Assembly: GCA_019240405.1 (NCBI GenBank)
Contig: JAFAYL010000034.1
Span: 124,001-188,000 of the forward strand
DNA from: Acidobacteriaceae bacterium
GTDB lineage: Bacteria; Acidobacteriota; Terriglobia; Bryobacterales; Bryobacteraceae
Direction of reading: 5' to 3'
Length of the DNA stretch: 64,000 bases
The notes under the pieces were generated by a model. It saw only the letters and a program-made list of their open reading frames with translations. It had not been told where the DNA came from and made no database searches. This document shows positions 5,005 through 21,194 of the stretch, piece after piece. Positions within the stretch are counted from its first letter, which is position 1. The number at the start of each line of letters is the position of its first letter. Made by a program: the position numbers and the translations under genes.

Positions 5005-7215
5005 TCAAAAACTCACTTTCCCGCGCAGCACGGTGATAGATGCTTTCGGCAGCGTGTAACTTGCCTCGCTCCCGCCAGCAACATTGCGCGCGACGGGCGG
5101 TCCGTCCGGATCGGCATAGCTGTCCCGGCCTTTGTCGTGCCAGACGTACTGTTCGGCGCCAAACGTGACCAGCCGGACAGGACCCGAAAAGTAAACCTTG
5201 TGCTTAGCCGATTCAAACACAACACGCACATCATGCGAGTTCTTCTCATCTCTGTTCACCAGCATTAACGACCATTTGCCATCTGGGCGGAGGAGGGCGT
5301 ATGACGTGATGAGGTCATTTCCATCCCCATCTTTAACCTCGATTGAAGACCGAAACATCCGATGCACGCCCGAACGGTGCTGGGCCCATTCGCGGTTAAT
5401 CAAATGAGCAGCAAAATAGAGTGAAGTGTATCCGGTGATGTTGTACTCGCGGTCGGAGACAAAGTTCGACCATGTGGCCCATCCGAGGCAACTCGGTTCT
5501 ACAGGTTGCGGCTGGATCGGCGAGTGGTAGAACGCAGCGCCCCCTCCCTCGAAGAAAGAACCGATGTTGTCGGCCAGCCAGAGCGCAGCGTAAATTGTGC
5601 TCATCGGGCCTGTGAGTTGCGCGGAAAGATGACTCTCGGTCACCATGAGCGGAACATTTTTCGGCACGCCATCCTTCCGCCAGACGTCAAGGATATGTTT
5701 CATCAATAGCGGCTCGGTATAGAGTGTTTTCCAGGTAATATCGCACTGCTCGAACGGATAGTGTTCGAAAGAAACAAAAGCCAGCTCGTCCAGATGCCCG
5801 TGGGCTTTCAGGTAATCAATAAAGCGGCCCATCCACGATGTCCGGCCTTGCGCGTCGGGCCACACGCGAATATCCTCGTTGACTCCTTCAAAAATCGGGC
5901 CGCCTAGCTTGATCTTCGCATCCACCTTATGGATAGCCGCCGCCCATTGGATGTAAAGTGCGCCGTAGTCTTCGGGCAGCGCGTGCTTGCCATCGGGCTC
6001 CTCGCCCATTTCGATGCCGCGAATCGGGTAGCCACGCTTCTCGATATAGGCAATCTGCGCCGCGGCATCATCGGGCGTTCCGTAGAGCAAAGTGACGGGA
6101 ATGAGTGCGGGGAGTCCGTTCGTAAGCCCGCTCGTAAAGAAAAGATCAAACCCGGTATGCTGGCCGCCGCCGGCTGCATTTACGTCGCCTGCGGAGTGCC
6201 ACGGGTCAATGGATGACGAGCAGAATGCCGGCGCGTCCTTACCCGAGGCGCCCTTTGCCGCATCGCTAAAAGCGCCGCCGTTCTCGATAGTTCCCGCATG
6301 GATGTCCTGGATAGCATAACCTACGCAATTACGAATGTCGCCCGATCCATGCACGTCGCAAGTATTGGAGGACTCCGTCATCCAGACACGAAGGAAACGC
6401 GTCGATACCGGTTCGGTGGAAAGAGTCAACGCCAGTTGGCCGCCCGACGAATTTTTTATGTCGCCTGCCGGGAAAGTCACCCATCTGCCTTGAGGCCCTC
6501 CGTCGAAATCGAGCGCGCCTGTTCCGACCCAATACTGCACTTGATACGTCCTCGCGTAAGGGCTGGCCCACCCAATGCGAATCGCGTTCACTCGTTTTTC
6601 TGCTTTGAGGTCCATCACCACCCATTGCGGATGAAGCGCGTCGCTTTCACCGGTGAACTTGCTGGTCAAATATGGATTGCTCTTCCAGTAAATGAGATTA
6701 GGCCCGCGCACGGGCGCATCGCCGCTGGTCGAAAAGCCGCGATGGGGCAGCGCGTATTCGAGAATGTAGCGAATTGGCTCTCCGAGCTCGGAGCTGCCCG
6801 TAAAGTAACCGCTCCTGCGTTCCGGATCGCTCCACGATCCATGCTCGTTCCAGTGCCACGCCGCCATGCGCAGCTCCGAGTTGTTTCGATATGTGATGGG
6901 TCCCCAGCCTGCTGAGAGTGATTCCTGAATGATGTGTGGCGTATACACCTCATCGATATCTCTGTGCGAAAGCACGTCGATGGAGCTGCCGAGCGCTTCG
7001 TCAGGATCGAATGAATTGATTTCGTGGCCTGCCGTCGCATCGATGCGGACCGTAGGGACCGTATCTCCGGCCTGAGGAAAGCGTGCCTCTACGAGCATAG
7101 AAAATACAATCACGGCGAAAGCGAACCTTGAAGCACGTGCAAGCAAAACCGCGTTGAACCTCCGGGTCAAAATTATACAGTGGGATCGGTCATAAAGCGA
7201 ATCGTGAAATGGCAT
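5005..7215 (-). CDS. Exported clan GH-A glycoside hydrolase (GH39-like) with discoidin-like module
   Basis: A 736-residue exported protein. After the signal region there is a discoidin/F5-8C-like beta module around residues 150-270 (MDLKAEKRVNAIRIGWASP, then STRFLRVWM). A TIM-barrel catalytic part follows, with probable acid/base Glu in GIEMGEEPDG (about residue 404) and probable nucleophile Glu in LMVTESHLS (about 526). The roughly 120-residue spacing fits GH39 and related clan GH-A families. The ATG at 7215 overlaps the divergent apbE start. A TTG at 7170 would give a cleaner signal peptide (MTRRFNAVLLARASRF...) and remove the overlap, so the start is uncertain. It is the first gene of a two-gene operon with GH31. 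Confidence 0.75.
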   Translation of the reverse strand: MPFHDSLYDRSHCIILTRRFNAVLLARASRFAFAVIVFSMLVEARFPQAGDTVPTVRIDATAGHEINSFDPDEALGSSIDVLSHRDIDEVYTPHIIQESLSAGWGPITYRNNSELRMAAWHWNEHGSWSDPERRSGYFTGSSELGEPIRYILEYALPHRGFSTSGDAPVRGPNLIYWKSNPYLTSKFTGESDALHPQWVVMDLKAEKRVNAIRIGWASPYARTYQVQYWVGTGALDFDGGPQGRWVTFPAGDIKNSSGGQLALTLSTEPVSTRFLRVWMTESSNTCDVHGSGDIRNCVGYAIQDIHAGTIENGGAFSDAAKGASGKDAPAFCSSSIDPWHSAGDVNAAGGGQHTGFDLFFTSGLTNGLPALIPVTLLYGTPDDAAAQIAYIEKRGYPIRGIEMGEEPDGKHALPEDYGALYIQWAAAIHKVDAKIKLGGPIFEGVNEDIRVWPDAQGRTSWMGRFIDYLKAHGHLDELAFVSFEHYPFEQCDITWKTLYTEPLLMKHILDVWRKDGVPKNVPLMVTESHLSAQLTGPMSTIYAALWLADNIGSFFEGGGAAFYHSPIQPQPVEPSCLGWATWSNFVSDREYNITGYTSLYFAAHLINREWAQHRSGVHRMFRSSIEVKDGDGNDLITSYALLRPDGKWSLMLVNRDEKNSHDVRVVFESAKHKVYFSGPVRLVTFGAEQYVWHDKGRDSYADPDGPPVARNVAGGSEASYTLPKASITVLRGKVSF

Positions 7216-8175
7216 GTCGCGATTATTCTGTTGGCCGGCCTTGCATCGCTTGCCGGAACCCGCGAACGGCCGTTCGAAGCTTCGGCAGACGTGATGGGGA
7301 CGACGTTCAGCATCCAGATCTATGGAACGAATGACGTTCTCATGAAGAGGGCTGCGGAAGATGCCTTTCGGGAGGCACGCAGGCTAGATCGAATGCTCTC
7401 AAATTACATTTCCGATAGCGAGCTCAATCAAGTAAATAAATGCGCCGCGCAACATCCCGTCACCGTCTCTCGCGAATTATTCGAGCTGATAAAAACTTGC
7501 CGCGAGTATAGCCTAAAAAGCGACGGCGCTTTTGATATTACCGTGGGGCCATTGATGAAAGTTTGGGGGTTCTATAAAGGTTCAGGCAGCCTGCCAAGCC
7601 CAACCGACATTCAGCAAGCGCTCGCGAGTGTCGGCTACAGCAATATAGACCTGGATTCGACAGCGTTGACGATCCGGTTCAAGAAACAAGGAATGAATTT
7701 GGATCCGGGAGGCGTGGGGAAAGGCTATTCCGTCGATCGCATGGTGGCGATCCTCAGACAAAATGGCCTTGACCGCGCACTTGTTTCAGCCGGGGGAAGC
7801 AGCATTTACGGCATCGGCGCGCCGCCCGACAGTCCGAGAGGATGGCGCATTCGCATCCGTGATCCTAAGCAAGAAAGCAAAACCATTGCCGAAGTGTTTC
7901 TGCGGGATCAATCAATTTCAACCTCCGGGAGTTACGAGAAATTCTTTTGGGCAAATGGCAGGCTGTACAGTCACATTATGGATCCGCGGACGGGTTATCC
8001 TGCAACGGGCATGCTGTCCGTGTCTGTTGTTTCCCCGATCACTTTGGACAGCGAAATCTGGGCTAAGCCGTACTACATTCTCGGCCGCGCTTGGACGGAA
8101 AGGCACAAACACAAAACGTTTCGTGTTCTGATGTGTGAAGACAAACCGGAATCCGGATGTGCGTGGATCGCCTAA
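7180..8175 (+). CDS. apbE: FAD:protein FMN transferase (ApbE family), exported
   Basis: A 331-residue ApbE-family enzyme, which covalently attaches FMN from FAD to Ser/Thr of extracytoplasmic proteins. Family signatures are present: DVMGTTFSIQIYG near residue 38, LDPGGVGKGYSVDRM near 177, SGSYEKFF near 247 and HIMDPRTGYP near 267. The hydrophobic N-terminus suggests export or membrane anchoring. Start choice: GTG 7180 (ORF track) or GTG 7204, the latter giving MKWHVAIILLAG. The usual C-terminal metal-site segment (ADALST-like) reads LDSEIWAKPYYILG here, replacing the expected Asp and Thr; this may be a subfamily trait. No FMN-bind target motif was found in the neighbouring genes, so the protein it modifies is unknown. 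It is followed after 9 bases by the DUF362 gene. Confidence 0.85.
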   Translation: MGSVIKRIVKWHVAIILLAGLASLAGTRERPFEASADVMGTTFSIQIYGTNDVLMKRAAEDAFREARRLDRMLSNYISDSELNQVNKCAAQHPVTVSRELFELIKTCREYSLKSDGAFDITVGPLMKVWGFYKGSGSLPSPTDIQQALASVGYSNIDLDSTALTIRFKKQGMNLDPGGVGKGYSVDRMVAILRQNGLDRALVSAGGSSIYGIGAPPDSPRGWRIRIRDPKQESKTIAEVFLRDQSISTSGSYEKFFWANGRLYSHIMDPRTGYPATGMLSVSVVSPITLDSEIWAKPYYILGRAWTERHKHKTFRVLMCEDKPESGCAWIA

Positions 8176-8184
8176 GCATGAGTC

Positions 8185-9300
8185 GTGAATAGAAGGCGCT
8201 TTCTTCATCTCGCTGCGGCATCTCCGCTGCTGGCTCACTCAAGAGATATTCCGGGGTATCACATTGTGACGCGGTTCACGCCGGCTAGAAATCCCGGCAT
8301 GCCCGGCCATTATCCCGGGAAGGCTGTTCGTGTTCATTCGGATCGTGCGATTAACGTTTCCTCAAATCGCGTGGATGCGAGCTGCATGAAAGCGATGCTT
8401 TCTGCGGGCATGCGCCAGTTGACCGGCGCGTCAGACGATCGCGATGCCTGGCGGCAGTTCATTTCTCCAGACGACACTGTCGGCATTAAGGTGAATTGTT
8501 CCGGCGCGCCGGAGATCAATTCAAATCCGGAGCTCGTCGCGTCGATTATAGAGAACCTACTTAGCCTGGGATTGCCACCGGAGCGCCTCTATATTTACGA
8601 CCGGTTCGCGTATCAAATGAGGATCGTGAATTTCGAGACTCATGTTCCCAAGGGCGTCAAAATCGCGGCTGCAGAAAGCTCCCGCGGGTCCATCGCCGGA
8701 TATGATCCCTTTACCTACGTAGAAGTGAATTTCTTTGGAGAAGAAGATACGCGATCCAATTTGATTCGGCTAGTCTCGGAAAAATTTACGAAGATCATTA
8801 ACGTGCCCACGATGAAAGAGCATCGCGCCGCAGGCGTTACCGGATGTTTGAAAAATATCGCGTACGGAGATTTTTCGAATGTCGCGCGTTCACACAAACG
8901 GGAACAATCGAACACCTATTCTTTCATCGGGACCCTGGCGTCCGTGGAGCCGTTGCGATCCAGAACAGTTCTGAACGTAATGGATGGTTTGCGCAGCATC
9001 TGGCATGGAGGTCCGTTCCTGCAAGATCCGAGATTCCTGTTCTATCCAAAAGAAATCGTGGTAGGAACAGATCCCGTTGCGCTGGATCATTTGTTAATCG
9101 ACATGATTGAAGCGAAGCGCCGCCAGGAGGGAGCGCCTTCGATTTTCGACCGCTCGAGCGCTCACTTGAAGTTTGTTCATGAGCGAGATCCGAACTTCAA
9201 CAGTTTCATTCGAGAGCCGGGGCACGTGCAATACGCGTCGGAGCTGGGCTTGGGAATCTACGACAAAAGTCAAATCCACGAGAAGGCAATCGAGCTTTGA
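8185..9300 (+). CDS. DUF362 domain protein with Tat-like signal
   Basis: A 371-residue DUF362-family protein starting at GTG with a twin-arginine leader (NRRRFLHLAAASPLLAHS). Segments typical of the family are visible: DDTVGIKVNCSG, INVPTMKEHRAAGVTGCLKN and EIVVGTDPVALDH. There is no ferredoxin-type cysteine cluster, unlike some longer DUF362 proteins. The biochemical role of DUF362 is not established; Tat export implies that it folds, and possibly binds a cofactor, before export. The stop overlaps the next start as TTGA, so translation of the two is probably coupled. Confidence 0.8.
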   Translation: MNRRRFLHLAAASPLLAHSRDIPGYHIVTRFTPARNPGMPGHYPGKAVRVHSDRAINVSSNRVDASCMKAMLSAGMRQLTGASDDRDAWRQFISPDDTVGIKVNCSGAPEINSNPELVASIIENLLSLGLPPERLYIYDRFAYQMRIVNFETHVPKGVKIAAAESSRGSIAGYDPFTYVEVNFFGEEDTRSNLIRLVSEKFTKIINVPTMKEHRAAGVTGCLKNIAYGDFSNVARSHKREQSNTYSFIGTLASVEPLRSRTVLNVMDGLRSIWHGGPFLQDPRFLFYPKEIVVGTDPVALDHLLIDMIEAKRRQEGAPSIFDRSSAHLKFVHERDPNFNSFIREPGHVQYASELGLGIYDKSQIHEKAIEL

Positions 9301-10235
9301 CGCTTATCGTTGCCGCTCTCGTCCTTCCGTCGTTGTTTTGGGACAAGGGCGCTGAAACAGCCAATCTTCTCGATCGGGCTCGGATCAGCCATATCGATAC
9401 GCCTGCTTCGATAGCAGATTCCTGGAAAAGAGTTGCCGGAATCACGGTTGATGTGGTCGATCTTAAGCAACTGATTCATCTAACGACGCCTTCGGTGCGT
9501 TTCGATCCGCAAGAGGCATCGGCGACTCGCGCAGCTTGGGTGAATTCAAACGGCTGGAGATTTCTTCGCGATCCTGATGCGCGCTTCTACTATGAAGCGC
9601 CCGGGGCCTCGGCGCCGTTGGCCGCTGCAGAAGCGTTTACGTATGGAGTCTGGGCCGTAATTCACACCAACGAAGCAGGACTGCAACCGCTTGGCGGGAT
9701 GCTTGCCTTTCTCAAACAGCTGGACAGCGAATATCTGCCTGCGCTCGCCAACATCGGATTCATCGACGACGGTTCGCCGCAATCCGGCGAGTTCATGAAT
9801 CTGCTTGTTCGCCGTAATCTTCTCTTCAAGATTGTGAAGCAGCCGGATCCGAAGCTTGACTTGACTGTCGCGCTGGGGTCGCCGGACTATCCCAGATTTG
9901 AAGCCGGTAATCCCAGTCTGCTGGCGGAAAAGGTGCGGAGTCATCTGACGGACGAGAAGCGGCTTTTGCGCATCTATGGAAGCGAAGAGGTGATCGGCAG
10001 ACTTTTCGGCGATGGGAATCATGCGCGGCTGTACCTGATAAACTACGAGTCCGCGCGAGCGTCTATCGAAGGCATTCGGGTTCGCGTCCTGGGAGACTAT
10101 TCGAAGCAACAGATTACCGGTTACGAACTGCCCGATGCGAGACTTCTCGATGTATCGACGGGCGCCGGTGCTACAGAGTTCACGATACCGGAACTTAGAA
10201 CATTCGCGGTGATTACTCTCTCTCAACGAAAATGA
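9297..10235 (+). CDS. Exported protein of unknown function
   Basis: A 312-residue protein that I do not recognise. It starts at a TTG overlapping the previous stop (TTGA) and its own stop overlaps the next ATG (ATGA), so it is embedded in a coupled apbE-DUF362-unknown-amidohydrolase operon. The N-terminus (MTLIVAALVLPSLFW) is a short signal or anchor. The C-terminal third (HARLYLINYESARASIEGIRVRVLGDY) reads like a beta-sandwich of the kind closing glycosidases. The middle contains a Gly-Ser-Pro-rich turn (FIDDGSPQSGEFMN). No catalytic motif is obvious. Conserved coupling suggests that it works with the DUF362 protein or the deacetylase. Confidence 0.6.
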   Translation: MTLIVAALVLPSLFWDKGAETANLLDRARISHIDTPASIADSWKRVAGITVDVVDLKQLIHLTTPSVRFDPQEASATRAAWVNSNGWRFLRDPDARFYYEAPGASAPLAAAEAFTYGVWAVIHTNEAGLQPLGGMLAFLKQLDSEYLPALANIGFIDDGSPQSGEFMNLLVRRNLLFKIVKQPDPKLDLTVALGSPDYPRFEAGNPSLLAEKVRSHLTDEKRLLRIYGSEEVIGRLFGDGNHARLYLINYESARASIEGIRVRVLGDYSKQQITGYELPDARLLDVSTGAGATEFTIPELRTFAVITLSQRK

Positions 10236-11536
10236 AATTGCAAATAACCAGTCAGTGGATCTTAGGAATCTGGATGATTTTCGGTTTGCCTGCGTCCGCA
10301 CAGACACAATACGATTTGCTTCTTCAAGGCGGGCACGTTATCGATGCGAAGAACCAAATTAGTGCTGTGCGGGATGTTGCGATTCGAGATGGCAAAATCG
10401 CGGCGGTCGCGGAGCATATTGACCCTGCGTCGGCGCTAAAAACCGTCGACGTCAAGAACCTGTACGTCACACCGGGGCTGGTCGATATCCACGTGCACGT
10501 ATACGCGAGCACCGGAGAGCGCAATTCTTACGCTGGCGATAACGGTGTTTTCCCGGATGGATTTACTTTGCGCACCGGGGTTACAACCGCCGCTGACGCG
10601 GGGAGCTCTGGATACAAGAATTTCGAGGATTTCAAAGAGCACATCATCAATCGAGCGAAAACGCGCATTCTCCCTTTCTTGAATATCGTGGGCGCGGGTA
10701 TGCGCGGTCCAAAATACGAAAACAATCTGGCCGATATGGACCCGCAGAAAGCAGCGGAGATGGCGAACCGCTACAAAGGCCTGATCGTCGGAATCAAAAC
10801 CGCTCACTACGCAGGTCCCGAATGGACGCCCGTGGAACATGCGGTGCAAGCCGGAACGCTCGCGAACATTCCCGTTATGGTGGACTTTGGTGAAAACCGG
10901 CCCGAGCGGCCGATTAGCATCTTGCTCACGCAGAAGATGCGGCCAGGCGATATATACACACACGTTTATTCCGGTCTTCGAAATGAGCTAGATGCATCAG
11001 GTCATGTCAGCTCAGCGCTGTGGGAGGGCCGGAGACGCGGCGTTATCTTCGATGTCGGCCACGGCGGCGGTAGTTTTGCCTGGCGGGTCGCAGTGCCCGC
11101 GATCCGCGAGGGTTTCCTGCCGGATTCCATTTCGACGGACCTGCACATCGGAAGCATGAATTCCGGGATGAAGGACATGCTGAATCTGATGAGTAAGTTC
11201 CTCGCTCTCGGGCTTTCCGTTGACGATATCATCGCGCGATCTACCTGGAATCCGGCGCGTGAGATTCATCATCCGGAGCTGGGGAATCTTTCGGTAGGAT
11301 CTCCGGCTGACGTCATCGCGCTGCGCGTCGAACATGGTGACTTCGGCTTTACCGATATGTACGGCGCGCGAATGCGAGGAAATCAGAAGTTTGTTTGCGA
11401 GCTAACGATCAGAGACGGCAAGATAGTCTATGACCTGAACGGCATCAGCCGCCCCGATTGGGATAAACTGCCACCAAACTACAAAGAAGTGGGAGATCCG
11501 CGTTGGGACGGGCTAAATCCCGCTAAGAAACAATAA
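10232..11536 (+). CDS. Exported amidohydrolase/deacetylase family metallohydrolase
   Basis: A 434-residue amidohydrolase-superfamily enzyme with a Sec-type signal (WMIFGLPASAQTQ). The metal site is readable: HVH in GLVDIHVHVY, a candidate carboxylated Lys in VGIKTAH, later His in THVYSG and DVGHGGG, and the Asp in STDLHIG. It resembles the group often annotated amidohydrolase/deacetylase (Atu3266/EF_0837-like), genes of which tend to sit beside SelA-like PLP ammonia lyases; two such PLP genes lie 2-7 kb away here. From recollection of that family, some members hydrolyse acetylated 2-hydroxy acids. Removal of an acyl group from a sugar-acid or amino-acid intermediate is inferred. Its start overlaps the previous stop (ATGA). 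Confidence 0.8.
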   Translation: MKLQITSQWILGIWMIFGLPASAQTQYDLLLQGGHVIDAKNQISAVRDVAIRDGKIAAVAEHIDPASALKTVDVKNLYVTPGLVDIHVHVYASTGERNSYAGDNGVFPDGFTLRTGVTTAADAGSSGYKNFEDFKEHIINRAKTRILPFLNIVGAGMRGPKYENNLADMDPQKAAEMANRYKGLIVGIKTAHYAGPEWTPVEHAVQAGTLANIPVMVDFGENRPERPISILLTQKMRPGDIYTHVYSGLRNELDASGHVSSALWEGRRRGVIFDVGHGGGSFAWRVAVPAIREGFLPDSISTDLHIGSMNSGMKDMLNLMSKFLALGLSVDDIIARSTWNPAREIHHPELGNLSVGSPADVIALRVEHGDFGFTDMYGARMRGNQKFVCELTIRDGKIVYDLNGISRPDWDKLPPNYKEVGDPRWDGLNPAKKQ

Positions 11537-11541
11537 GGCGA

Positions 11542-12837
11542 CTAAGCCGCGACACTTACATTTCGAGTAACAGGCTCTGGCCGAACGGGTAACCAGGCAA
11601 GCGCGCCTGCTGCACACAGAGAAGCGGCAACTATAAAGGACGCCGTCCAGCCGAAACGGTTCGCGATTGCAGGTGTAAGTGAAGCCGTCAAAGCTCCGCC
11701 AAGCTGTCCTCCCATATTCATGAAACCTGAGACTGAACCAGCAGAGGCCTTCCCTATATCTGCCGATACAGACCAGAATGAGCTTTGGGAGAGATAGAGC
11801 GCGCCCGCCCCGCCAGCCAACACCAGACTTGCGAGACGAGGGCTCTCAACCCGCATTGCGAACCCGACGAAACCGGCGCACACCAGAATGGCGGCACATG
11901 CCAGAAAGCACCGGCCCACGCGCTTACCCCATTTCTTAGTAAGTCGATCGCTGATCCATCCGCCAAGCGGGGATCCGACAGCCATGGCAAGGAAGGGTAG
12001 CATCGTGTAATAAGAACTCGCTCTGACGTCCAGCTTCCTAACTGAACTTAGGTAGATAAAGAACCAGCTAAAGAATATGTACGCTGCATAGCCATAGGTG
12101 AAGTAACTGAATGTTATCGCTTGAACATTGTGGTCCCGCAGAATTCTGGTCCAAGGAAGTTTTGTATTTTGAGAACCTGCTTCACCAGCGTTCGGCAGTC
12201 CGGCCTGAATGAAAGCCCGTTCGCTCGCTGAAACCCGCGGGTGCTCCGCCGGTTTGTCTCTGGCGAAGGCGTACCAGATCACGCCCGCAATGAGTCCAAG
12301 AATTGCGCTCGCCCAGAATGACGCTCTCCAGCCTTGGTGCAGCATCAGGTAGCCGATCAGTGGCGGAGTAATCCCGGCGCCGAAACCCACTCCCGCGAAA
12401 ATGATTCCGTTCGCGATGCCTCTCTCGGTGGAAGGAATCCACGCGGCAACGACGCAGTTCGACGCGGGGTAAACAACTGCTTCCCCCATTCCGAGCAGAA
12501 AGCGCGCAGCGATCAGAAATAGCAACGCGCTTTTCGCACCGACGGGAAGAAACGTGATGATCGCCGTGAAGAGACCCCACCAAACAACGCCGCCTGCTAA
12601 AACCCTTCGAGGCCCGATTTTATCGGCCAAGGATCCGCCCGGAGCCTGAAACAGTGCGTAGCCCAAAACAAAAGCGCTGAAGACCCATCCCAAGTGCACA
12701 TTGTCGAGATGGAATTCGTTGGCGATCGCCTGACCGGCAATGGAGATATTGACTCTGTCGAGATAAGCGATCGCGCTTACCAAAAACATCCACCAGATCA
12801 GCAGCCAACGGATGCGGCTGTTTTGAGTGCTAGCCAT
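11542..12837 (-). CDS. MFS transporter, ACS (anion:cation symporter)-like
   Basis: A 431-residue major facilitator with about 12 hydrophobic segments and the loop 2-3 signature GGSLADKIGPRRVLAGG. The first helix ends in AIAYLDRVNISIAG, a common start for the ACS family of sugar-acid/organic-anion symporters (glucarate, galactonate, phthalate types). It is the last gene of the RraA-PLP-RidA-MFS operon (15 bases after RidA). It is one of very few products in this region without a cleavable signal, which makes it the likely uptake step for acids produced outside the cytoplasmic membrane. The substrate is inferred from neighbours only. Confidence 0.85.
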   Translation of the reverse strand: MASTQNSRIRWLLIWWMFLVSAIAYLDRVNISIAGQAIANEFHLDNVHLGWVFSAFVLGYALFQAPGGSLADKIGPRRVLAGGVVWWGLFTAIITFLPVGAKSALLFLIAARFLLGMGEAVVYPASNCVVAAWIPSTERGIANGIIFAGVGFGAGITPPLIGYLMLHQGWRASFWASAILGLIAGVIWYAFARDKPAEHPRVSASERAFIQAGLPNAGEAGSQNTKLPWTRILRDHNVQAITFSYFTYGYAAYIFFSWFFIYLSSVRKLDVRASSYYTMLPFLAMAVGSPLGGWISDRLTKKWGKRVGRCFLACAAILVCAGFVGFAMRVESPRLASLVLAGGAGALYLSQSSFWSVSADIGKASAGSVSGFMNMGGQLGGALTASLTPAIANRFGWTASFIVAASLCAAGALAWLPVRPEPVTRNVSVAA

Positions 12838-12852: not shown

Positions 12853-13314
12853 TTAGATATACGCGATCACGTCGATCTCGACCAGAGAATTCCCTGGGAC
12901 GCCCGCGGCCGCAGTAGTTGTTCTCACGGGTGGCTCAGACCCAAAGCGGCCCATAAAAACTTCATTCATGCCCTGATAATCTTTGAGATCCGCCAAGTAA
13001 ACCTGACACTTCAAAACTTTCTCCATGGAAGAGCCTGAGGCTACGAGTTTTTTCTGAATTTCATCGAGCACGTGCTTGGTGTGCGCTTTGATATCACCTT
13101 CAAAGTGAGCTCCAATGCCGGAGAGAAAGAGCAGGTTTCCATAGGAGACTGCCGGACTAAAAAGCGGCGTCTTCTCGGGCTTCTTGCCGTCCTCCCAAAG
13201 AACTTTCTTCGTTGCGCTGGATTGAGCCGCAGCTTGCCCTGATCCTGCGGTAACAGCAACCGCCGCGGATGCCGCACTTTTTCCAATAAACTGCCTTCTG
13301 TTACTGTTTCGCAT
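12853..13314 (-). CDS. RidA (YjgF/YER057c/UK114) family protein with Tat-like signal
   Basis: A 153-residue protein with a RidA domain that keeps the Arg of PPVRTTTAAAGVPG and the Glu of LVEIDVIAYI; in RidA these hold and hydrolyse imine/enamine products of PLP enzymes. It carries an N-terminal twin-arginine leader (NRRQFIGKSAASAAVAVTAG followed by an Ala-rich stretch), unusual for a family that is normally cytoplasmic. A GGAG Shine-Dalgarno lies five bases before the ATG at 13314. It is 13 bases downstream of a SelA-like PLP gene, a very natural partner: the PLP enzyme would release 2-aminoacrylate-like imines that RidA hydrolyses. Confidence 0.85.
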   Translation of the reverse strand: MRNSNRRQFIGKSAASAAVAVTAGSGQAAAQSSATKKVLWEDGKKPEKTPLFSPAVSYGNLLFLSGIGAHFEGDIKAHTKHVLDEIQKKLVASGSSMEKVLKCQVYLADLKDYQGMNEVFMGRFGSEPPVRTTTAAAGVPGNSLVEIDVIAYI

Positions 13315-13327
13315 ACATTCTCCATTC

Positions 13328-14992
13328 TTAAGCGCGCTTGACCGGCTTCACAACTCCTCGGGGTGCCTGATATTCATGGCGCTGCGCCGACCATCGAGCC
13401 TCGCCGTATTCACCCATATTCACATCGCCAGCCATCTTGTCGCCATCCACTGTGCCACTAAACTCGAAAAATAAACGCGTGCCTTGGATCTTCTGCGAGC
13501 TACGGAAGTGTACCTGATTTACGGCCACTGTGCCGCTGAGATCGCCGGATACGTACTCGCCGCGATGTGTGCCCACCAAATTCGCGCCGTCCTGTTCAAA
13601 GATCAGCGTGTGAGTCGCAGAGCCACGGCCGAATTCTAACTGCGCTTCCCATTGCCCCGCGATTACGGCCAGCTGTCCTTGGGGCAAAACTGGATTCTGA
13701 AACTTTGGCGGCTTTGAAAGAACTTCATACAGGCGTTCAGCTACAATCTCATGATCGCCGGGCATCATCATGTACGGCGTAATCGAAACGCTGCTCGCCA
13801 TGTTATAGGGGCGATTCCCAGAAGCGCTGCCAAATATGATTCTAGGCTCGGTATCGAGCAGCACCTTACTGACTTCCTGACCGGTTATCCCCAGCCGAGT
13901 GCCATCCCATTCGATACGGAGCACCGGGGTTTTATTCGAAAGCCCCTCGGGAGGTTCGACGCGCGTGGTGACGCCATTGACTTTTGTCACCTTTGCTGCG
14001 ATCTGATCAAGCCACTTCTGCCACTCCCGGCTTTCTGCTTCGTAGTCGCGCTTGGTCCACATCTCGACGGCCGCGAGCATCCCCATAATCTCTTCTTTGC
14101 CGACTTTCAGCGAGCGCCCGAACGCGTGATGCGGAGCGCTATTCGCCCATGCTGCTTGCAGCAGATTCTTCTCGCCTAGCAGCAGACCGGCGCTCTGCGG
14201 CCCTCGAATGCACTTGCCCCCGCTATAGGCAACCGCCGTTGCCCCGCGCTGCAAGTGCACGTTCGGTATCGTGAGCACTTCTGCGGCTGCATCGACAATC
14301 ACCGGCACGTTGTGGCGCCGCGCGACCTCTGAAACTGCTTGCGTTCCAAGCGGCCCGGTGTCGCCTTCCCCGGCGAGAATGTAAACCATCGCGGTATTCT
14401 CATTGAATCCGGAATCGAGCTCGGACCTCTCCTTCATTTCGACGATCTTGACGCCCACCATCCGGATCGCGTGATCGTACACGTTGCGCGAATATTCCGG
14501 AATGATCACCTCGTCTTTGAGCCCTCTAAGATCCGGAAGACGCTGCATGCGTTCAGGGTTCGATCCGGCGATGCACGCAGTCGTGCAGTGGGTTAGCGCT
14601 GCGCAACAGCCGTTGGTCACAATGCCCCACTCGGCCTGTGTGAGCTCTGCAAGCCGCTTGCCCACGCCGTCCATCAACTCGTCCATCTGAACGTACGCGC
14701 GCGACGCGTCATCCATCGCTTGCTTCACTTCGGGAAGGGTTTCGGATCCGGTGATGATCGTAAACGTGCCGCGCGCGTTGATAACTGGCCGCACGCCGAT
14801 TGCGCGATACAACTCGCCGTGGCTGTTGACTTTCGTTGCAGTATTAGAAGTGCCGCTGTTGACCTTGGAAAACGCCGGGAACGCTCCTACAAGGCTCAGC
14901 AGGCCGCCTTGCCGGAACAAATCTCTTCGATTAAAACCACTTTCGCGGCTCGAGAATTTTGACCGGAGGAAATCGGGAACTACGCGTCTCAT
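13328..14992 (-). CDS. Tat-exported SelA-like PLP enzyme with C-terminal beta domain
   Basis: A fold-type I PLP enzyme of the SelA/DgaE-like group (the D-glucosaminate-6-phosphate ammonia lyase relatives). The PLP lysine is in AYSGGKCIRGPQSAG and the Asp pairing with the pyridine nitrogen is in PVIVDAAAE. The ORF track starts at 15100, inside the preceding RraA gene. I take the ATG at 14992 (554 residues), which leaves a twin-arginine leader (FNRRDLFRQGGLLSLVGAFPAF). The last ~90 residues after the PLP domain form an extra beta-rich module (GQWEAQLEFGRG...FEQDGANLVGTHRG), also found at the N-terminus of the GH27 protein at 49526. Probable role: beta-elimination of ammonia or water from a hydroxylated amino or sugar acid. 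It is second in the RraA-PLP-RidA-MFS operon. Confidence 0.85.
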   Translation of the reverse strand: MRRVVPDFLRSKFSSRESGFNRRDLFRQGGLLSLVGAFPAFSKVNSGTSNTATKVNSHGELYRAIGVRPVINARGTFTIITGSETLPEVKQAMDDASRAYVQMDELMDGVGKRLAELTQAEWGIVTNGCCAALTHCTTACIAGSNPERMQRLPDLRGLKDEVIIPEYSRNVYDHAIRMVGVKIVEMKERSELDSGFNENTAMVYILAGEGDTGPLGTQAVSEVARRHNVPVIVDAAAEVLTIPNVHLQRGATAVAYSGGKCIRGPQSAGLLLGEKNLLQAAWANSAPHHAFGRSLKVGKEEIMGMLAAVEMWTKRDYEAESREWQKWLDQIAAKVTKVNGVTTRVEPPEGLSNKTPVLRIEWDGTRLGITGQEVSKVLLDTEPRIIFGSASGNRPYNMASSVSITPYMMMPGDHEIVAERLYEVLSKPPKFQNPVLPQGQLAVIAGQWEAQLEFGRGSATHTLIFEQDGANLVGTHRGEYVSGDLSGTVAVNQVHFRSSQKIQGTRLFFEFSGTVDGDKMAGDVNMGEYGEARWSAQRHEYQAPRGVVKPVKRA

Positions 14993-15014
14993 CGTCAACA
15001 CTATAACGAAGCCG

Positions 15015-15749
15015 CTATAACCGGCCAAACTTTGCGACCGCCTCGCGAATCGACCTATATTTCTCGATGAAGGAATACATGCTGTGTTCGCTTTCATCAA
15101 GCTGTTGCGCTTTCTTCAGAACTTCGGCTGCTTTCTCCCTCGGAACAGCAACAACACCGTCCATGTCGGCGACGATGATATCCGAAGGGCGAACCTCGAC
15201 CCCCGCGCAGTTGACTGTAATATTTTTTCCTCCAACGCGATAGTGATTCACGGTTGTAGAGGGCACGACCCCGCGGCTGAAAACAGGAAACTGGAGCCGC
15301 GTGATTTGCGGAGTATCCCGAATCCCTCCATCGACAATCGCACCTGCAAGTCCTCTGTATTTCATCGCGGTGCTCATCAGGCCGCCGATTCCGGCATAAT
15401 CCAGGCCGGCCTCGACCACCATTACGTAGACTGATCCAGGCGCGGCTTCATCGATCAAATCCAACATCCCTTCCTGGGCCTTCGATCCGTCAGTATGCTC
15501 TTCTTTGTGCAGAAGCACAGTCACGGCGGGGCCAGCAAATTTTGTCGGCATCAGCGGGCGCATGTCGTGTGCCATATACGCGCGTCTGCCATATAGTTGT
15601 TCCATGGCATCTGCGACGGAAGCAGCTTCCACCAGGCGAAATCCCTGTACGATGTTTTCCTCGTCGTTCGCAGCGTGTACGCGTCCTCGATGAAGCGCGA
15701 GAATCAGAAAACAGCCGGCGCCAGCCGCGGCACTCAATTTGCGTCTCAT
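15015..15749 (-). CDS. RraA-family aldolase/regulator-like protein with signal peptide
   Basis: A 244-residue RraA/HMG-aldolase family protein. The conserved core is present: ASVADAMEQLYG, then GGLMSTAMKYRGLAGAIVDGGIRD, whose Arg and Asp correspond to the substrate and metal residues of 4-hydroxy-4-methyl-2-oxoglutarate aldolases, and DIIVADMDGVVAVP. Bacterial RraA itself binds RNase E, but catabolic relatives cleave 4-hydroxy-2-oxo acids or decarboxylate oxaloacetate. Here an N-terminal Sec-like leader (AAAGAGCFLILALHRGRVHA) argues against RNase control and for an exported enzyme. It is the first gene of a four-gene operon; its 5' end overlaps the probable start of the divergent cytochrome gene. 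Confidence 0.8.
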   Translation of the reverse strand: MRRKLSAAAGAGCFLILALHRGRVHAANDEENIVQGFRLVEAASVADAMEQLYGRRAYMAHDMRPLMPTKFAGPAVTVLLHKEEHTDGSKAQEGMLDLIDEAAPGSVYVMVVEAGLDYAGIGGLMSTAMKYRGLAGAIVDGGIRDTPQITRLQFPVFSRGVVPSTTVNHYRVGGKNITVNCAGVEVRPSDIIVADMDGVVAVPREKAAEVLKKAQQLDESEHSMYSFIEKYRSIREAVAKFGRL

Positions 15750-16547
15750 AGATCGACCATTCTATATACCGCCGTTTTCTGTTCGATTACGATTTCGCTT
15801 TCGGCGCAAGTGCGCCCTCAGTCTTCGAGCTCAACTCAAGCCAGCCAGCAGCTCTTTAGCGCGAATTGCACGGGATGTCACGGCCTTGATGGGCGCGGCG
15901 GCGAGCACGGGCCGAACATCGCCACAAATCGAGACGTGCAGCGGTTAGACGATCGGGACATTCTCCGAATTCTTCGCGATGGCGTTCCCGGCGGGGGGAT
16001 GCCCGGCTTCCGCTCAGAATTTAACGACGATCAACTCAACGCGGTTGTCCGCTATGTCCGCCTTCTCCAGGGCAAACACGCAACGATGATCGTGAGGGGT
16101 GATCAGAAGAAAGGCGAGGCGCTATTTTTCGGAAAAGCTCGATGCTCCGAATGCCACATGATTGGAGGCAAGGGTGGCTTCATCGCATCTGACCTTTCCG
16201 GATACGGCCAGGAGCACTCGCCTGACGTTATCCGGGAAGCGATTATCGATCCGAACAAGAATCTGGAACCGCGGCGGCAAATCGTCACTGCTATTACCCG
16301 GGATGGCCGAAAATATACAGGAATCGCGCTCAATGAGGACAACTTCTCCCTGCAGTTGCAAACTCTCGACGGAGCGTTTCACTTGTTCGAAAAATCGGGT
16401 TTGGCCAAGGTCGAGCACGAACCGAGATCGCTTATGCCCTCCAACTATGTCTCAACGCTGAGCCCTGGCGATCTGGACGACCTGGTTGCATATCTTGCTG
16501 CGGCGACTACACCCGGCGGATCAGAGCCAGGCAGAGATGAAGAGTGA
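15690..16547 (+). CDS. Exported di-heme c-type cytochrome
   Basis: Two CXXCH heme sites (CTGCH near residue 60 and CSECH near 152), each in a small cytochrome c domain, followed by a C-terminal segment resembling the putative heme-binding region of PVC/acidobacterial proteins (HSPDVIREAIIDPNKNLEP). The signal region is STILYTAVFCSITISLSAQ. The ORF track start at 15597 is deep inside the divergent RraA gene. ATG 15690 is the nearest ATG upstream of the signal, and even it overlaps RraA by 60 bases. It heads an operon with the SMP-30, PLP and PQQ dehydrogenase genes, so it is the likely electron acceptor for the quinoprotein. Confidence 0.85.
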   Translation: MKRENQKTAGASRGTQFASHRSTILYTAVFCSITISLSAQVRPQSSSSTQASQQLFSANCTGCHGLDGRGGEHGPNIATNRDVQRLDDRDILRILRDGVPGGGMPGFRSEFNDDQLNAVVRYVRLLQGKHATMIVRGDQKKGEALFFGKARCSECHMIGGKGGFIASDLSGYGQEHSPDVIREAIIDPNKNLEPRRQIVTAITRDGRKYTGIALNEDNFSLQLQTLDGAFHLFEKSGLAKVEHEPRSLMPSNYVSTLSPGDLDDLVAYLAAATTPGGSEPGRDEE

Positions 16548-17518
16548 TAAAGGCTGGAAACGCGTTGTTGCTTTTTGCCGCGTTGCAAACTGCGGGTGTT
16601 CTCCTAATCTCCGAGAGCCATGGCGAGACACGACGTGAATTCGAGCTGATTGCACACTCTCCGAAGTTCTGGAAGCTCCTAGACCATCACGCGCAACTCA
16701 CAACTCTCGCGACCGGCTTCGGTTTCACTGAAGGGCCAGTTTGGGATGCTGCTGGTTTTCTTTACGTCAGCGATGAGACACAGAATAAGATCTATAGTGT
16801 CCACCCTGGCGGAAGCAAAGAAACGATTATCAAACTGGGGGATCCGGACGGAAACACGTTCGACCGGCAGCATCGCCTCATCGATTGCGCGAGCATCTTG
16901 CGCGCGATTATTGCTGTGAAGCCGGATGGAACATATACGATCCTTGCGGACCGGTTTCAGGGCAAGCGCTTTAACAGCCCCAATGACGTCGTGGTCGGGC
17001 CTGACGGTGCGCTTTATTTCACGGACCCCACGCTCGATTTGCCCAAGGGCAAGAAGCAGGAGATCCCGTTTCAGGGCGTCTACCGGTTGGGGGAAGACGG
17101 ACAAGTGCAGTTGCTGGCGAAAAGTATGTCGCAGCCCAACGGTCTCGCCTTTTCCCCCGACGGCAACAGACTGTATGTTGACGATAGCGATCAGAAAGAT
17201 ATTCAGGTGTTCGACTTTTCGCCTCCCGTGACTCTCGCAAATGGCCGCGTTTTTGGACAGGAACGCGAAAAAGGCGGTGTACCGGACGGCATGAAGGTCG
17301 ATGAATCAGGAAATCTCTTCGTCGTCGGACCGAAGGGAATTTGGGTGTGGGACGCAAACGGCCATCATCTCGGGACAATTGTCACCCCTGAACAGCCCGC
17401 GAACCTTGCTTGGGGCGACAAGGATTACGAGACGCTTTACATTACCGCGACCACTTCGGTGTATCGCTTGCGAACCAAAACACGCGGATTCGTTCCGTAT
17501 TTGAAGCTCTCCCGTTGA
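16544..17518 (+). CDS. SMP-30/gluconolactonase family lactonase, exported
   Basis: A 324-residue six-bladed beta-propeller of the SMP-30/gluconolactonase/LRE family. The metal ligands expected for the family are visible: Glu in FTEGPVWD, Asn in NSPNDVVVGPDG and Asp in VPDGMKVDESGN. The N-terminus has a Sec-like signal (LLLFAALQTAGVLLISESHG). The GTG start overlaps the cytochrome stop (GTGA). Lactonases open the sugar lactones made by quinoprotein sugar dehydrogenases, and such a dehydrogenase gene lies two genes downstream in the same operon; this link is inference, but chemically coherent. Confidence 0.88.
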   Translation: MIKAGNALLLFAALQTAGVLLISESHGETRREFELIAHSPKFWKLLDHHAQLTTLATGFGFTEGPVWDAAGFLYVSDETQNKIYSVHPGGSKETIIKLGDPDGNTFDRQHRLIDCASILRAIIAVKPDGTYTILADRFQGKRFNSPNDVVVGPDGALYFTDPTLDLPKGKKQEIPFQGVYRLGEDGQVQLLAKSMSQPNGLAFSPDGNRLYVDDSDQKDIQVFDFSPPVTLANGRVFGQEREKGGVPDGMKVDESGNLFVVGPKGIWVWDANGHHLGTIVTPEQPANLAWGDKDYETLYITATTSVYRLRTKTRGFVPYLKLSR

Positions 17519-17557
17519 TCGCGGTGTATGTTCTGAAATGAGGCGTTCTCTATTTCT

Positions 17558-18808
17558 GTGAAGAAATCTCATTCCCGGCGTAGTTTTTTCGGGTGGACCA
17601 CAGGTCTGTTGGCGAGCCAAGTATCGCCGGCGCGCACGATCGACAAGGCCCAACCCCCGAGCGAACCTGATTATTACGACAAGCTCGGCGTAACGAAGAT
17701 CATCAATGCCGCTGGAACCTATACCGTTCTGACCGCTTCGATCATGCCGCCTTCCGTGCAGGCGGCGGTCGATCGAGCGGCCAAGTACCCGGTTCGCTTA
17801 TTGGAACTGCAATGCGCGGTGGGCGAGTATCTCGCAAAGCGGCTGAATTGCGAAGCCGCAATGGTTACTGCTGGCGCGTCGAGCGCATTGACACTCGGTA
17901 CTGCCGCGTGTATCGATTTAATAAACAAATTGCCCCCGCAAGCTGTTCCGATGCAGATATCAAACCTGAAGAACGAGGTGATCATCCAAAAGACTCATCG
18001 CTACGGCTATGATCACGGGCTTGAGATTTGCGGCGTACGCTTTGTCGAGATTGAAACACTGCCGGAGTACGAGAATGCGTTCACGAGCCACACGGTGATG
18101 GCGCATTTCTTTAATGCCGCTGAAGGTGGCCAGATAAGCCGCGAGGATTGGATTCGAATAGCCCATAAGCACGGCGTACCCTGCTTCAACGATGCCGCCG
18201 CTGACGTCCCCCCGATCTCCAATTTGTGGAACTATACAAAAATGGGTTTCGATCTGGTGACATTCTCCGGCGGAAAAGGCATTCGAGGTCCGCAGAACGC
18301 CGGCCTGCTTTTGGGCCGAAAAGACCTTATCGCGGCGGCGACTCAGACCAATAATCCTTTCGATGACGGCATCGGCCGTGGAATGAAAGTGGCCAAGGAG
18401 CAGATCGTCGGAATGGTCGCGGCAGTCGACTGGCTTCTCGAGCAGAGCGATGATGAGATGCAGGCCGACTTTCAGCGCCGCGCGGTTCGAATTGCCGGTC
18501 ACCTGAAAGACATCCCGACCCTCGAATCGAAAGTTGTGGTTCCGGAAGTCGCGAATCATGTTCCGCACCTGTTAATCCGGTACGATCAACAGCGCGTCAG
18601 AATCGCGCCGCTGGACGTTGCAGAGAAACTGCGAACGGGCAATCCGAGCATCGAGTTGAATCCCTCTACAGGCAAAAGGGAAGGTTCGAGCGGACTGCAT
18701 TCCGATGAGAACACGATTGTTGTCGGTGTATGGATGCTTCAACCCGGCGAAGATATGATCGTGGCCAGCCGTCTGCGCGAGATCTTATCCAGATCGGTCG
18801 AGGGATAG
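17558..18808 (+). CDS. Second Tat-exported SelA-like PLP enzyme
   Basis: A 416-residue paralogue of the PLP enzyme at 13328, without the C-terminal beta domain. It shares the motif around the Schiff-base Lys (TFSGGKGIRGPQNAG), the opening LGVTKIINAAGTYTVLT and the DAAADVPP segment holding the pyridine-binding Asp. The N-terminal SRRSFFGWTTGLLAS is a twin-arginine-type leader after a GTG start. Family knowledge points to ammonia lyase, racemase or aldolase-like chemistry on hydroxylated amino acids; the substrate is unknown. It lies between the lactonase and the PQQ dehydrogenase in one operon, so the two PLP paralogues are divided between two divergent operons. Confidence 0.85.
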   Translation: MKKSHSRRSFFGWTTGLLASQVSPARTIDKAQPPSEPDYYDKLGVTKIINAAGTYTVLTASIMPPSVQAAVDRAAKYPVRLLELQCAVGEYLAKRLNCEAAMVTAGASSALTLGTAACIDLINKLPPQAVPMQISNLKNEVIIQKTHRYGYDHGLEICGVRFVEIETLPEYENAFTSHTVMAHFFNAAEGGQISREDWIRIAHKHGVPCFNDAAADVPPISNLWNYTKMGFDLVTFSGGKGIRGPQNAGLLLGRKDLIAAATQTNNPFDDGIGRGMKVAKEQIVGMVAAVDWLLEQSDDEMQADFQRRAVRIAGHLKDIPTLESKVVVPEVANHVPHLLIRYDQQRVRIAPLDVAEKLRTGNPSIELNPSTGKREGSSGLHSDENTIVVGVWMLQPGEDMIVASRLREILSRSVEG

Positions 18809-18816: not shown

Positions 18817-20466
18817 GTGTGGCGTGAGCGGCATTTTGTTGTTATAGTCACCATCTGCAGTTCATTCGCTCTTTGGACCGCCGCACAAACTAACCCTCAA
18901 TCACCCATTTCGGTTGCAATCGATGTCCGCCCTGCCGATCTGCTCGTCCAGCCTCCGGCAGTCAACTGGTCCTCGTATAACGGCGATTATTCAGGACGTC
19001 GCTTCAGCGCACTTAAAGAGATCACGGCGCAAAATGTTGACCAACTTCGAGCGCAATGGGTATTCCATTCGTCAAATTCCAGCAATCTGGAAGCAACGCC
19101 CGTGGTCGTGAACGGCGTCATGTTCATGACATCGGCAAACGAGGCTTTCGCTCTCGACGCCCGCACCGGCCGTGCGCTCTGGCACTATTCGCGCCCAGTT
19201 ACGGAAGGCCTCGTCGATGACGCATCGGCTCATCACAATCGCGGCGTGGGTGTTTGGCATTCGCGGGTCTACATGGAAACGGATAATGCGCATCTGCTTT
19301 GCCTCGATGCCCGCTCGGGTCACCTCATCTGGGATGTTGCTTATGCCGAAGGCAACTCCAACTATGGTGCAACGAGTGCGCCGTTAGTGATCAAGGACAA
19401 AGTTTTGGTCGGAACTTCAGGGGGAGATGATGGCGTTCGAGGTTTTGTTGCTGCCTTCGATGCTACGACGGGAAGAGAAGCCTGGCGCTTTTGGACTATT
19501 CCCGCGCCCGGCGAGTTCGGCTCCTCGAGTTGGCCGGGTGAGATGTATCTGCGAGGTGGAGCTACCACCTGGATGCCAGGGACGTACGATTCGGAGCTGA
19601 ATACTGTGTATTGGGGAACGAGCAACCCGGCCCCCGATTTCGATGGCGGCCCCCGGCCGGGCGACGATCTTTACAGTGACTGTGTGTTAGCGCTCGATGC
19701 CGACAACGGCAAGCTTAAATGGTATTTTCAATTCACGCCGCACGACGATTTTGACTACGACGCGACGGAAACTGCTGTGCTGATCGATACACGGTACAAA
19801 GGCGCGCTACGCAAGCTGTTGGTCGAAGCGAATCGCAACGGCTTCGTTTATATTCTCGACCGGACGAATGGAAAATATCTTTCGGCAGCTCCGTTCGTGA
19901 AGAAGCTGAACTGGGCAAAAGCGATCGAGGACACGGGCAGGCCTGTCCGGAGCGGCGCTGAGCCTTCTCAGAATGGAACGCTCATCTGTCCAGACATGAC
20001 CGGCGCAACGAACTGGTTCTCGCCTTCGTACAACCCTTCCACGCATCTGCTCTACTTCATGGCCCTTGAAAATTGCCAGATGTATTTCGTCAAGCCTCAA
20101 CAATTCACTCCTGGAAAACAGTATTATGCGACGGGCGTGAAGCATGCTCCCGGCCAATACGGACAGAAAATCCTGCTGGCTTATGATCCCGAGACCAACA
20201 CGTTTGCATGGCGCTATCCGCAAATTGGCGGGGGGCACTCCTGGGGTGGAACCATGACCACGGCTGGTGGACTGGTATTCTTTGGCGACGATTCCGAGGC
20301 GTTTGAAGCCGCGGACGCGCAGACCGGGGCGCCGCTTTGGCATTTCAACACCGGTCAGTCAATGCATGCTTCACCCATGAGCTATGCCGTCGAGGGCAAA
20401 CAGTATGTCGCCATTGCGGCCGGCAGCGACGTGTTTACGTTCGCGCTGCCAGATGGGAAACGCTGA
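18817..20466 (+). CDS. PQQ-dependent dehydrogenase (quinoprotein), exported
   Basis: A 549-residue eight-bladed propeller of the PQQ alcohol/glucose dehydrogenase type. The signal peptide ends near LWTAAQT. PQQ-propeller docking repeats (ALDARTGRALWHY, AFDATTGREAWRFW) and the catalytic segment DDFDYDATETAV near residue 310 are present. The adjacent-cysteine pair of methanol dehydrogenases is absent, and there is no fused cytochrome domain, so the separate di-heme cytochrome of the operon probably takes the electrons. It starts at GTG, 8 bases after the PLP stop. The substrate is an alcohol or aldose; the neighbouring lactonase favours a sugar. Confidence 0.88.
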   Translation: MWRERHFVVIVTICSSFALWTAAQTNPQSPISVAIDVRPADLLVQPPAVNWSSYNGDYSGRRFSALKEITAQNVDQLRAQWVFHSSNSSNLEATPVVVNGVMFMTSANEAFALDARTGRALWHYSRPVTEGLVDDASAHHNRGVGVWHSRVYMETDNAHLLCLDARSGHLIWDVAYAEGNSNYGATSAPLVIKDKVLVGTSGGDDGVRGFVAAFDATTGREAWRFWTIPAPGEFGSSSWPGEMYLRGGATTWMPGTYDSELNTVYWGTSNPAPDFDGGPRPGDDLYSDCVLALDADNGKLKWYFQFTPHDDFDYDATETAVLIDTRYKGALRKLLVEANRNGFVYILDRTNGKYLSAAPFVKKLNWAKAIEDTGRPVRSGAEPSQNGTLICPDMTGATNWFSPSYNPSTHLLYFMALENCQMYFVKPQQFTPGKQYYATGVKHAPGQYGQKILLAYDPETNTFAWRYPQIGGGHSWGGTMTTAGGLVFFGDDSEAFEAADAQTGAPLWHFNTGQSMHASPMSYAVEGKQYVAIAAGSDVFTFALPDGKR

Positions 20467-21194
20467 TGCCCGCCTATTCGATCCCGTTATTCTGCCTCTT
20501 GGCCTTGCGCGCGCATTCGGAGGAGCCTTGCATGTTCAAACAACCTGCAGCGACATTCTCAATCCGTCATGTAGAGGGTCATCCTGAGCTCACCATCAAT
20601 CCGGACGCTGACGAGTGGAAGAATGCGGCAGCCGAATCCATGTGGAAGGATTGCACCCATCCCATCGACTACCCGCACTTGAAAACAGAGATCCGCGCGT
20701 TCTGGACGGATACAGATCTTTACTTTTTGTTTCGTTGTCCGTACACGGTTTTGAATTTGTTCCTACCCGCGAATAACGCCGCTCCCCGCGTTGGTCTTTG
20801 GGACCGCGACGTTGTAGAAATGTTTCTCGGCGATGATTGGACGAACATCCGCCATTATCGAGAATTCGAGATCGCGCCTACCGGCGATTGGATCGATCTC
20901 GCGATCGACCTGGATCGGCAAAGTTACGATCACACGTGGAGATCGGGCTGGCAAACGATGGCGCACATCGATGAGCAACACAAGATCTGGTACGCTGCTG
21001 CGCGGATTCCACTTTCCGCAGTCAGCAGTAAACCGGTTCGCGACGGCACAAAATGGCGTATGAACCTCTATCGAATTGAAGGCCTCGGTCCGGATTCTCA
21101 GAGGCATTTTCTTTGCTGGCAGCCGACTTGTGTGCAGAATCACGATCCCAACCATGTGCCTGAGCACTTCGGGACTCTGATCTCCCATAAGTAA
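20466..21194 (+). CDS. Carbohydrate-binding family 9-like exported protein
   Basis: A 242-residue protein similar to CBM9-like domains of sugar-binding exported proteins (INPDADEWKNAAAES, EIRAFWTDTDLYFLFRCPY, DVVEMFLGDDW). The ORF track start at 20337 lies inside the dehydrogenase gene. The ATG at 20466 overlaps the preceding TGA by one base (TGATG) and begins a signal-like MPAYSIPLFCLLALRAHSEE. It is the last gene of the cytochrome-lactonase-PLP-dehydrogenase operon. CBM9 modules bind reducing ends of glycans; a stand-alone version could present sugar ends to the quinoprotein, but that is a guess. Confidence 0.75.
   Translation: MPAYSIPLFCLLALRAHSEEPCMFKQPAATFSIRHVEGHPELTINPDADEWKNAAAESMWKDCTHPIDYPHLKTEIRAFWTDTDLYFLFRCPYTVLNLFLPANNAAPRVGLWDRDVVEMFLGDDWTNIRHYREFEIAPTGDWIDLAIDLDRQSYDHTWRSGWQTMAHIDEQHKIWYAAARIPLSAVSSKPVRDGTKWRMNLYRIEGLGPDSQRHFLCWQPTCVQNHDPNHVPEHFGTLISHK

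Follow-up and report, generated by a model that had tools for sequence, protein, structure and literature searches.

The window analyzed here, a stretch of 64,000 nucleotides from an Acidobacteriaceae bacterium (assembly GCA_019240405.1, 4.45 Mb; contig JAFAYL010000034.1, positions 124,001 to 188,000), encodes two full length pyridoxal phosphate (PLP) proteins, A and B, that carry twin-arginine leaders and lie in two divergent gene sets. With a probability of roughly 0.5, we read A and B as paralogous ammonia-lyases that would be exported by the twin-arginine translocation (Tat) pathway, would act on non-phosphorylated 2-amino-2-deoxy-aldonic acids, and would form an extracytoplasmic branch of the group containing DgaE and Cap15. 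The parts of this reading differ in strength: lyase chemistry appears probable, while an amino-sugar acid has about an even chance of being the substrate. An earlier note on this DNA described an SGGK-x-IRGPQ Schiff-base motif and a twin-arginine leader in both proteins, and both features are indeed present in each. The Schiff-base stretch is SGGKCIRGPQSAG in A and SGGKGIRGPQNAG in B, and the corresponding leaders are SGFNRRDLFRQGGLLSLVGAFPAF and SHSRRSFFGWTTGLLASQVSPA.

Twin-arginine leaders

Leaders were scored with a TATFIND-like rule, which requires an RR motif and an uncharged stretch near the N-terminus. For the controls, 40 regions were taken arbitrarily from the same genomes; their 472 open reading frames (ORFs) of at least 200 amino acids were scored with any start within the first 90 codons allowed. 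Within the window, the rule was satisfied by A, B, the RidA family protein and a DUF362 protein. Among homologues it was satisfied by 46 of 51 A sequences, 113 of 129 B sequences and 41 of 46 RidA sequences, versus 16 of the 472 control ORFs (3.4%). These numbers bear out the proposal of the earlier note that the leaders are genuine Tat-type signals. Two partner families, the metallohydrolase AmiH (2 of 62) and the RraA-type aldolase family (1 of 29), seldom satisfied the rule and instead have Sec-type signals, and most of the partner-protein N-termini that were inspected resemble Sec, lipoprotein or Tat signals. TatC is encoded in the genome (PF00902, 208 bits). The same kind of leader is found in relatives on contigs of Bacteroidota, Balneolota, Gemmatimonadota metagenome-assembled genomes (MAGs) and one Planctomycetota MAG, keeping in mind that MAG contigs can be misassigned.

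A mechanical ORF listing opens protein A at a TTG at 15100, inside rraA; the ATG at 14992 is the likelier start, and it retains the leader. A misread start, in which the leader would be upstream read-through ahead of a true downstream start codon, had been raised as a possible artefact and is ruled out by the conservation of the leader throughout the clade. Judged from these leaders, export of A and B through the Tat pathway is very probable.

The B-type N-termini in five loci (L098, L099, L101, L115 and L118) have leaders that end in a lipobox-like sequence (LLATGC, GGVAGGC), and some B-type relatives may be Tat-exported lipoproteins.

Family, fold and phylogeny

A and B are 36% identical, and a search of the genome with B returns A as its sole relative. 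The closest solved structures by sequence are DgaE (7lc0) and Cap15 (8t7j), an oxygen- and PLP-dependent enzyme. AlphaFold models, with a mean predicted local distance difference test (pLDDT) score of 89 for B and 83 for A and with disordered leaders, also best match DgaE and Cap15 (TM-score to target 0.84-0.88), while SelA gives about 0.5-0.66. SelA belongs to the same broad superfamily and resembles A and B weakly in sequence near the PLP lysine, but its fold is much less close. On the SelA model TIGR00474 (cut-off 267.9), A and B score 21.6 and 28.0, and the genome encodes a separate, true SelA with a score of 508. Score, fold and the presence of this second protein rule out a true SelA identity, so the label "SelA-like" given in the earlier note was too loose, and DgaE/Cap15-like describes the fold better.

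Neither protein reaches the cut-offs of the DgaE models TIGR01437 (A 160.9, B 155.8; cut-off 385.3) and NF047797 (A 153.7, B 116.4; cut-off 600). These scores, together with the residues at the Arg346 and His163 positions of DgaE described below, rule out DgaE orthology, although A and B may be similar to DgaE in their working.

A tree of 68 rows, with support given as ultrafast bootstrap / SH-aLRT, placed all 56 leader-bearing sequences inside a single clade of 57 members (100/97). Its sister group consists of haloarchaeal and Mesorhizobium proteins, and DgaE, Cap15 and the rhizobial proteins lie on the opposite side of the tree (100/99). On this tree the leader state must have changed twice, such as by a gain and a loss. 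The phylogeny thus separates A and B from cytoplasmic DgaE and SelA; placement within a known cytoplasmic group, which the earlier note had named as grounds for dropping its proposal, was not observed. A search of viral contigs with B gave no match.

The one leaderless member of the clade, placed in the A group, is encoded on plasmid pMl1 of Sinorhizobium meliloti (L128:7953-9557). It includes the C-terminal domain of A and lies amid genes for phosphoenolpyruvate (PEP) mutase, a cytidylyltransferase and a cytidine diphosphate (CDP)-alcohol transferase, and it likely has a different role. The C-terminal beta domain of A (window 13328-13700, approximately residues 440-545) also matches stretches in many Acidobacteriota genomes where it stands apart from any PLP domain.

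Active site residues

In DgaE, PLP is bound by Schiff-base Lys213, the phosphate cluster consists of Arg301, Arg332 and Arg346, and His163, next to His162, is the proton donor (PMC9529869). The equivalent of Lys213 is invariant in our alignments (46 of 46 A and 127 of 127 B sequences, 173 of 173 in all). Arg346 has an equivalent in none of the 46 A and in four of the 127 B sequences; that of Arg301 occurs in 16 of 46 A sequences and is not common in B. Where the alignment is gappy, at Arg332, arginine is not the common residue in A and is found in 25 of 127 B sequences. This loss of the DgaE phosphate-binding site fits a non-phosphorylated substrate, as would be expected outside the cytoplasm. 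His162 and His163 are present in three DgaE-type controls, but neither is the usual residue at its position in A or in B. DgaE without His163 builds up an intermediate that is not seen in the wild type, and its authors suggested that protonation keeps a potentially toxic intermediate from being released (PMC9529869). The presence of an exported RidA next to enzymes that lack His163 is consistent with this idea.

Gene content of the window and of related loci

The genes of the two sets are listed in Table 1. As the earlier note had it, A lies with RidA and RraA, and B with the lactonase and quinoprotein, in divergent sets. On the minus strand the order is RraA-A-RidA-MFS, with intergenic gaps of 13-22 bp, and on the plus strand it is cytochrome c-SMP30 lactonase-B-quinoprotein. 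The genome of the window also encodes a pqqE-type gene. Homologues of the CBM9-like protein recur beside other loci, and it is tentatively included as a member of the module.

Table 1. Genes of the two divergent sets and adjoining genes in the window
Product	Position	Strand	Remarks
ApbE, DUF362 protein (Tat-type leader) and unnamed protein (9297-10235)	7180-10235		trio
AmiH, amidohydrolase/deacetylase family metallohydrolase, Sec-type signal	10232-11536	plus	above NF006689 cut-off (420.3; cut-off 371), below narrower EF_0837 model TIGR03583 (222.2; cut-off 432.15)
Major facilitator superfamily (MFS) transporter	11542-12837	minus	nearest subfamily galactonate transporter, score below its cut-off
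RidA family protein (enamine/imine deaminase type), Tat leader NRRQFIG	12853-13314	minus	PF01042 present (75.2 bits; cut-off 27.3); satisfies Tat rule
Protein A, Tat-leader PLP enzyme (DgaE/Cap15-like)	13328-14992	minus	554 aa; Schiff-base Lys260; C-terminal beta domain (~residues 446-538)
RraA-type aldolase family protein, Sec-type signal	15015-15749	minus	PF03737; DGGIRD motif
Cytochrome c with additional CxxCH heme-binding domain	15687-16547	plus	start uncertain, ORF opens at 15597
SMP-30/gluconolactonase family protein, Sec-type signal	16544-17518	plus	PF08450
Protein B, Tat-leader PLP enzyme (DgaE/Cap15-like)	17558-18808	plus	416 aa; GTG start; Schiff-base Lys240
Pyrroloquinoline quinone (PQQ)-type quinoprotein dehydrogenase, Sec-type signal	18817-20466	plus	just over TIGR03075 cut-off
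CBM9-like exported protein	20337-21194	plus	without Pfam match of its own; start uncertain

Neighborhoods of approximately 20 kb were compared between 49 A/B regions and 40 control regions from the same sampled genomes, which are related to one another, so that p-values overstate the enrichment. RidA was found beside A/B in 24 of 49 regions (0 of 40 controls), AmiH in 26 (one control), RraA in 17 (one control) and MFS in nine (no control). Of 13 Acidobacteriaceae loci that were retrieved, 12 show the order RraA-B-RidA-A, nine of them with AmiH directly next. This order also occurs in Acidicapsa, Bryocella and Edaphobacter, and in Granulicella, in which a lactonase is next. Four further loci with B-type genes (L130, L195, L198 and L200) contain homologues of the cytochrome c, SMP30, RraA, quinoprotein and MFS genes of the window in varying combinations.

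Among the Bacteroidota, a Ginsengibacter locus (L194) comprises SusD, B, AmiH, a GSDH-type dehydrogenase with a cytochrome c domain, CBM9, RidA, a PIG-L deacetylase and RraA, and a Lewinella locus (L184) comprises GSDH-cytochrome c, CBM9, SMP30, AmiH, RidA and B. The Ginsengibacter locus and one from Sinomicrobium (L202) adjoin SusD, the latter also a TonB-dependent receptor and FecR, a setting resembling a polysaccharide utilization locus. Leaderless AmiH, RidA and PLP genes are found with ATP-binding cassette (ABC) transporters in Martelella and Qingshengfaniella. Of two leaderless haloarchaeal relatives, one has a GH20 protein, a PIG-L deacetylase and a D-aminoacylase as neighbors, and the other has PIG-L, a glucose dehydrogenase and RidA.

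Two other observations concern these loci. Near a B-type enzyme, L198:3265-4608 encodes a protein that has a Sec-type signal and three domains of the RidA type, and the trio of ApbE, DUF362 and unnamed proteins recurs as a set beside the related loci L076, L163 and L164.

A proposed extracytoplasmic pathway and its alternatives

In the proposed pathway, A and B would be folded and loaded with PLP while still in the cytoplasm and would then cross the Tat pore, like PvdN, to meet 2-amino-2-deoxy-aldonic acids of the glucosaminate type outside the inner membrane. The quinoprotein and cytochrome c would oxidize an amino sugar, free or N-acylated, to a lactone, which the lactonase would open, and AmiH would take off the N-acyl group. 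A or B would then eliminate water, and the Tat-exported RidA would hydrolyze the enamine/imine set free in this way, yielding ammonia and a 2-keto-3-deoxy acid. The RraA-type aldolase could cleave this acid to pyruvate and an aldehyde or, alternatively, the MFS carrier could import it. We infer actual export, reaction type, substrate, step order and the distinction between A and B, which probably lies in substrate or stereochemistry. That the whole constitutes a complete extracytoplasmic oxidative amino-sugar pathway, not described before, which releases nitrogen and cleaves the carbon skeleton outside the inner membrane in Acidobacteriota, Bacteroidota/Balneolota and possibly Gemmatimonadota and Planctomycetota, is put forward tentatively.

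Several results weigh against this interpretation. In the comparison within the same genomes, the neighborhoods of A/B showed no significant enrichment of the quinoprotein (4 of 49 regions) or of SMP30 (0 of 49), and the oxidation steps therefore rest on the window, on L130, L195, L198 and L200, and on the Bacteroidota analogues. No physiological substrate could be verified for relatives of AmiH. A strict link between the loss of His163 and the presence of RidA is unsupported, and the connection drawn above is only suggestive, because rhizobial-type relatives have both. The hydrophobic stretch in the leader of B itself is weak, and its relatives have stronger ones. Finally, Cap15, whose fold is as close to A and B as that of DgaE, is an oxygenase and not a lyase.

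The generic nature of the AmiH family (amidohydrolase/deacetylase) leaves room for a module that breaks down D-hydroxy-amino acids or N-acylated D-amino acids, derived for instance from peptidoglycan or humic peptides, in which A and B would be exported D-amino-acid ammonia-lyases or racemases and not enzymes of amino sugars. The D-aminoacylase annotation beside the haloarchaeal relative and the ABC transporters, asparaginase or aspartate ammonia-lyase in the wider neighborhood of rhizobial-type relatives would agree with this, and MFS and RidA would fit amino-acid dehydration. We nevertheless regard it as unlikely, as the lactonase, sugar dehydrogenase, CBM9, N-acetylglucosamine (GlcNAc) deacetylase and SusD partners indicate sugars, and RidA and the aldolase would be superfluous to a racemase.

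The likeness to Cap15 raises another alternative, in which A and B are exported, oxygen-dependent PLP enzymes that serve as oxygenases or oxidases of beta-hydroxy-alpha-amino acids outside the inner membrane; they would resemble Cap15 in fold and PvdN in location. Cap15 consumes a beta-hydroxy-alpha-amino acid and O2 (PMC7497351), and PvdN is counted among the O2-reactive PLP enzymes. Yet Cap15 falls with DgaE in the tree, apart from the exported clade, and has a His at position 163 that is absent from A and B, and the constant RidA, aldolase and deacylase partners better suit beta-elimination and the formation of a keto acid. This alternative seems to us rather improbable.

The earlier note suggested that the two enzymes catalyze sequential or stereospecific steps, and in the strictest form of this idea exported A and B would perform compulsory consecutive steps or be two subunits of one enzyme. 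They co-occur in 21 sampled genomes, where chance would give about two, and in Acidobacteriaceae they belong to one operon; relatedness among the genomes inflates this co-occurrence. A was found without a B-type protein in eight sampled genomes, however, and B without A in seven, sometimes with AmiH and RidA partners in either case, and the catalytic lysine is kept in both. Genomes with only one of the two disfavor an obligatory heteromer or relay, for which we see little chance. Their single occurrence points to paralogues of different specificity rather than compulsory successive steps, and a difference in substrate or stereochemistry suits the data better. A cytoplasmic location of A and B, with leaders that are non-functional for export, would accord with the weak hydrophobic stretch of B but is highly improbable given a leader conserved clade-wide and in loci of several phyla, the encoded TatC, and RidA, AmiH and RraA partners that also bear export signals, several of them for Sec.

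Comparison with known systems and significance

In the cytoplasm, PLP enzymes are known to deaminate sugar acids. A and B share with DgaE the PLP fold (TM-score to target 0.85-0.86), the Schiff-base lysine, and partners that include an amidohydrolase/deacetylase, an aldolase of the pyruvate type and a lactonase, and the cytoplasmic Klebsiella operon (leaderless amidohydrolase-DgaE-2-keto-3-deoxy-phosphogluconate (KDGP) aldolase-lactonase) is mirrored by the RraA-B-RidA-A(-AmiH) order of Acidobacteriaceae. The module described here differs from the DgaE system in its Tat leaders, the addition of RidA and the absence of a phosphotransferase system (PTS), and from both that system and EF_0837-type operons in having an RraA-type aldolase family protein instead of a KDGP-type aldolase. 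Cap15, equally close in fold and sequence, is biosynthetic (capuramycin), and its setting, as far as examined, is not one of AmiH, RidA and RraA.

A GlcNAc-glucosamine-glucosaminate route has been predicted in the haloarchaeon Natrarchaeobius, with deacetylation and oxidation followed by a DgaE homologue (PMC12343721). It resembles our module in having a RidA/RutC-family neighbor, and haloarchaeal relatives form part of the sister group of the exported clade. It differs in that its proteins are leaderless, its oxidation is of the glucose-dehydrogenase type and a kinase step is assumed, and it is itself a prediction.

The earlier note named racemases as the main precedent for periplasmic PLP enzymes. 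That view overlooks PvdN and PtaA of Pseudomonas, which have been shown experimentally to be Tat-exported as folded holoenzymes to the periplasm, with PLP binding preceding export in the case of PvdN (PMC6206403). These two serve in siderophore tailoring, have no catabolic operon and, as far as searches of the PDB show, lie outside the DgaE/Cap15 sequence group. Tat export of PLP holoenzymes is therefore known in principle; what would be new is that a DgaE-type clade and the gene module around it are both exported. No earlier description of such an exported member or module turned up in the literature searched, which left most subscription journals outside its coverage, in agreement with the earlier note, which knew of no described exported SelA-like lyase.

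With an exported RidA beside it, this single, widespread exported clade would mean that common soil bacteria release nitrogen from the amino sugars of chitin, peptidoglycan and glycans beyond their inner membrane. A group of loosely annotated genes would thereby become a testable pathway, and the export of cofactor-loaded enzymes by Tat, hitherto documented for siderophore tailoring by PvdN and PtaA, would gain a catabolic use.

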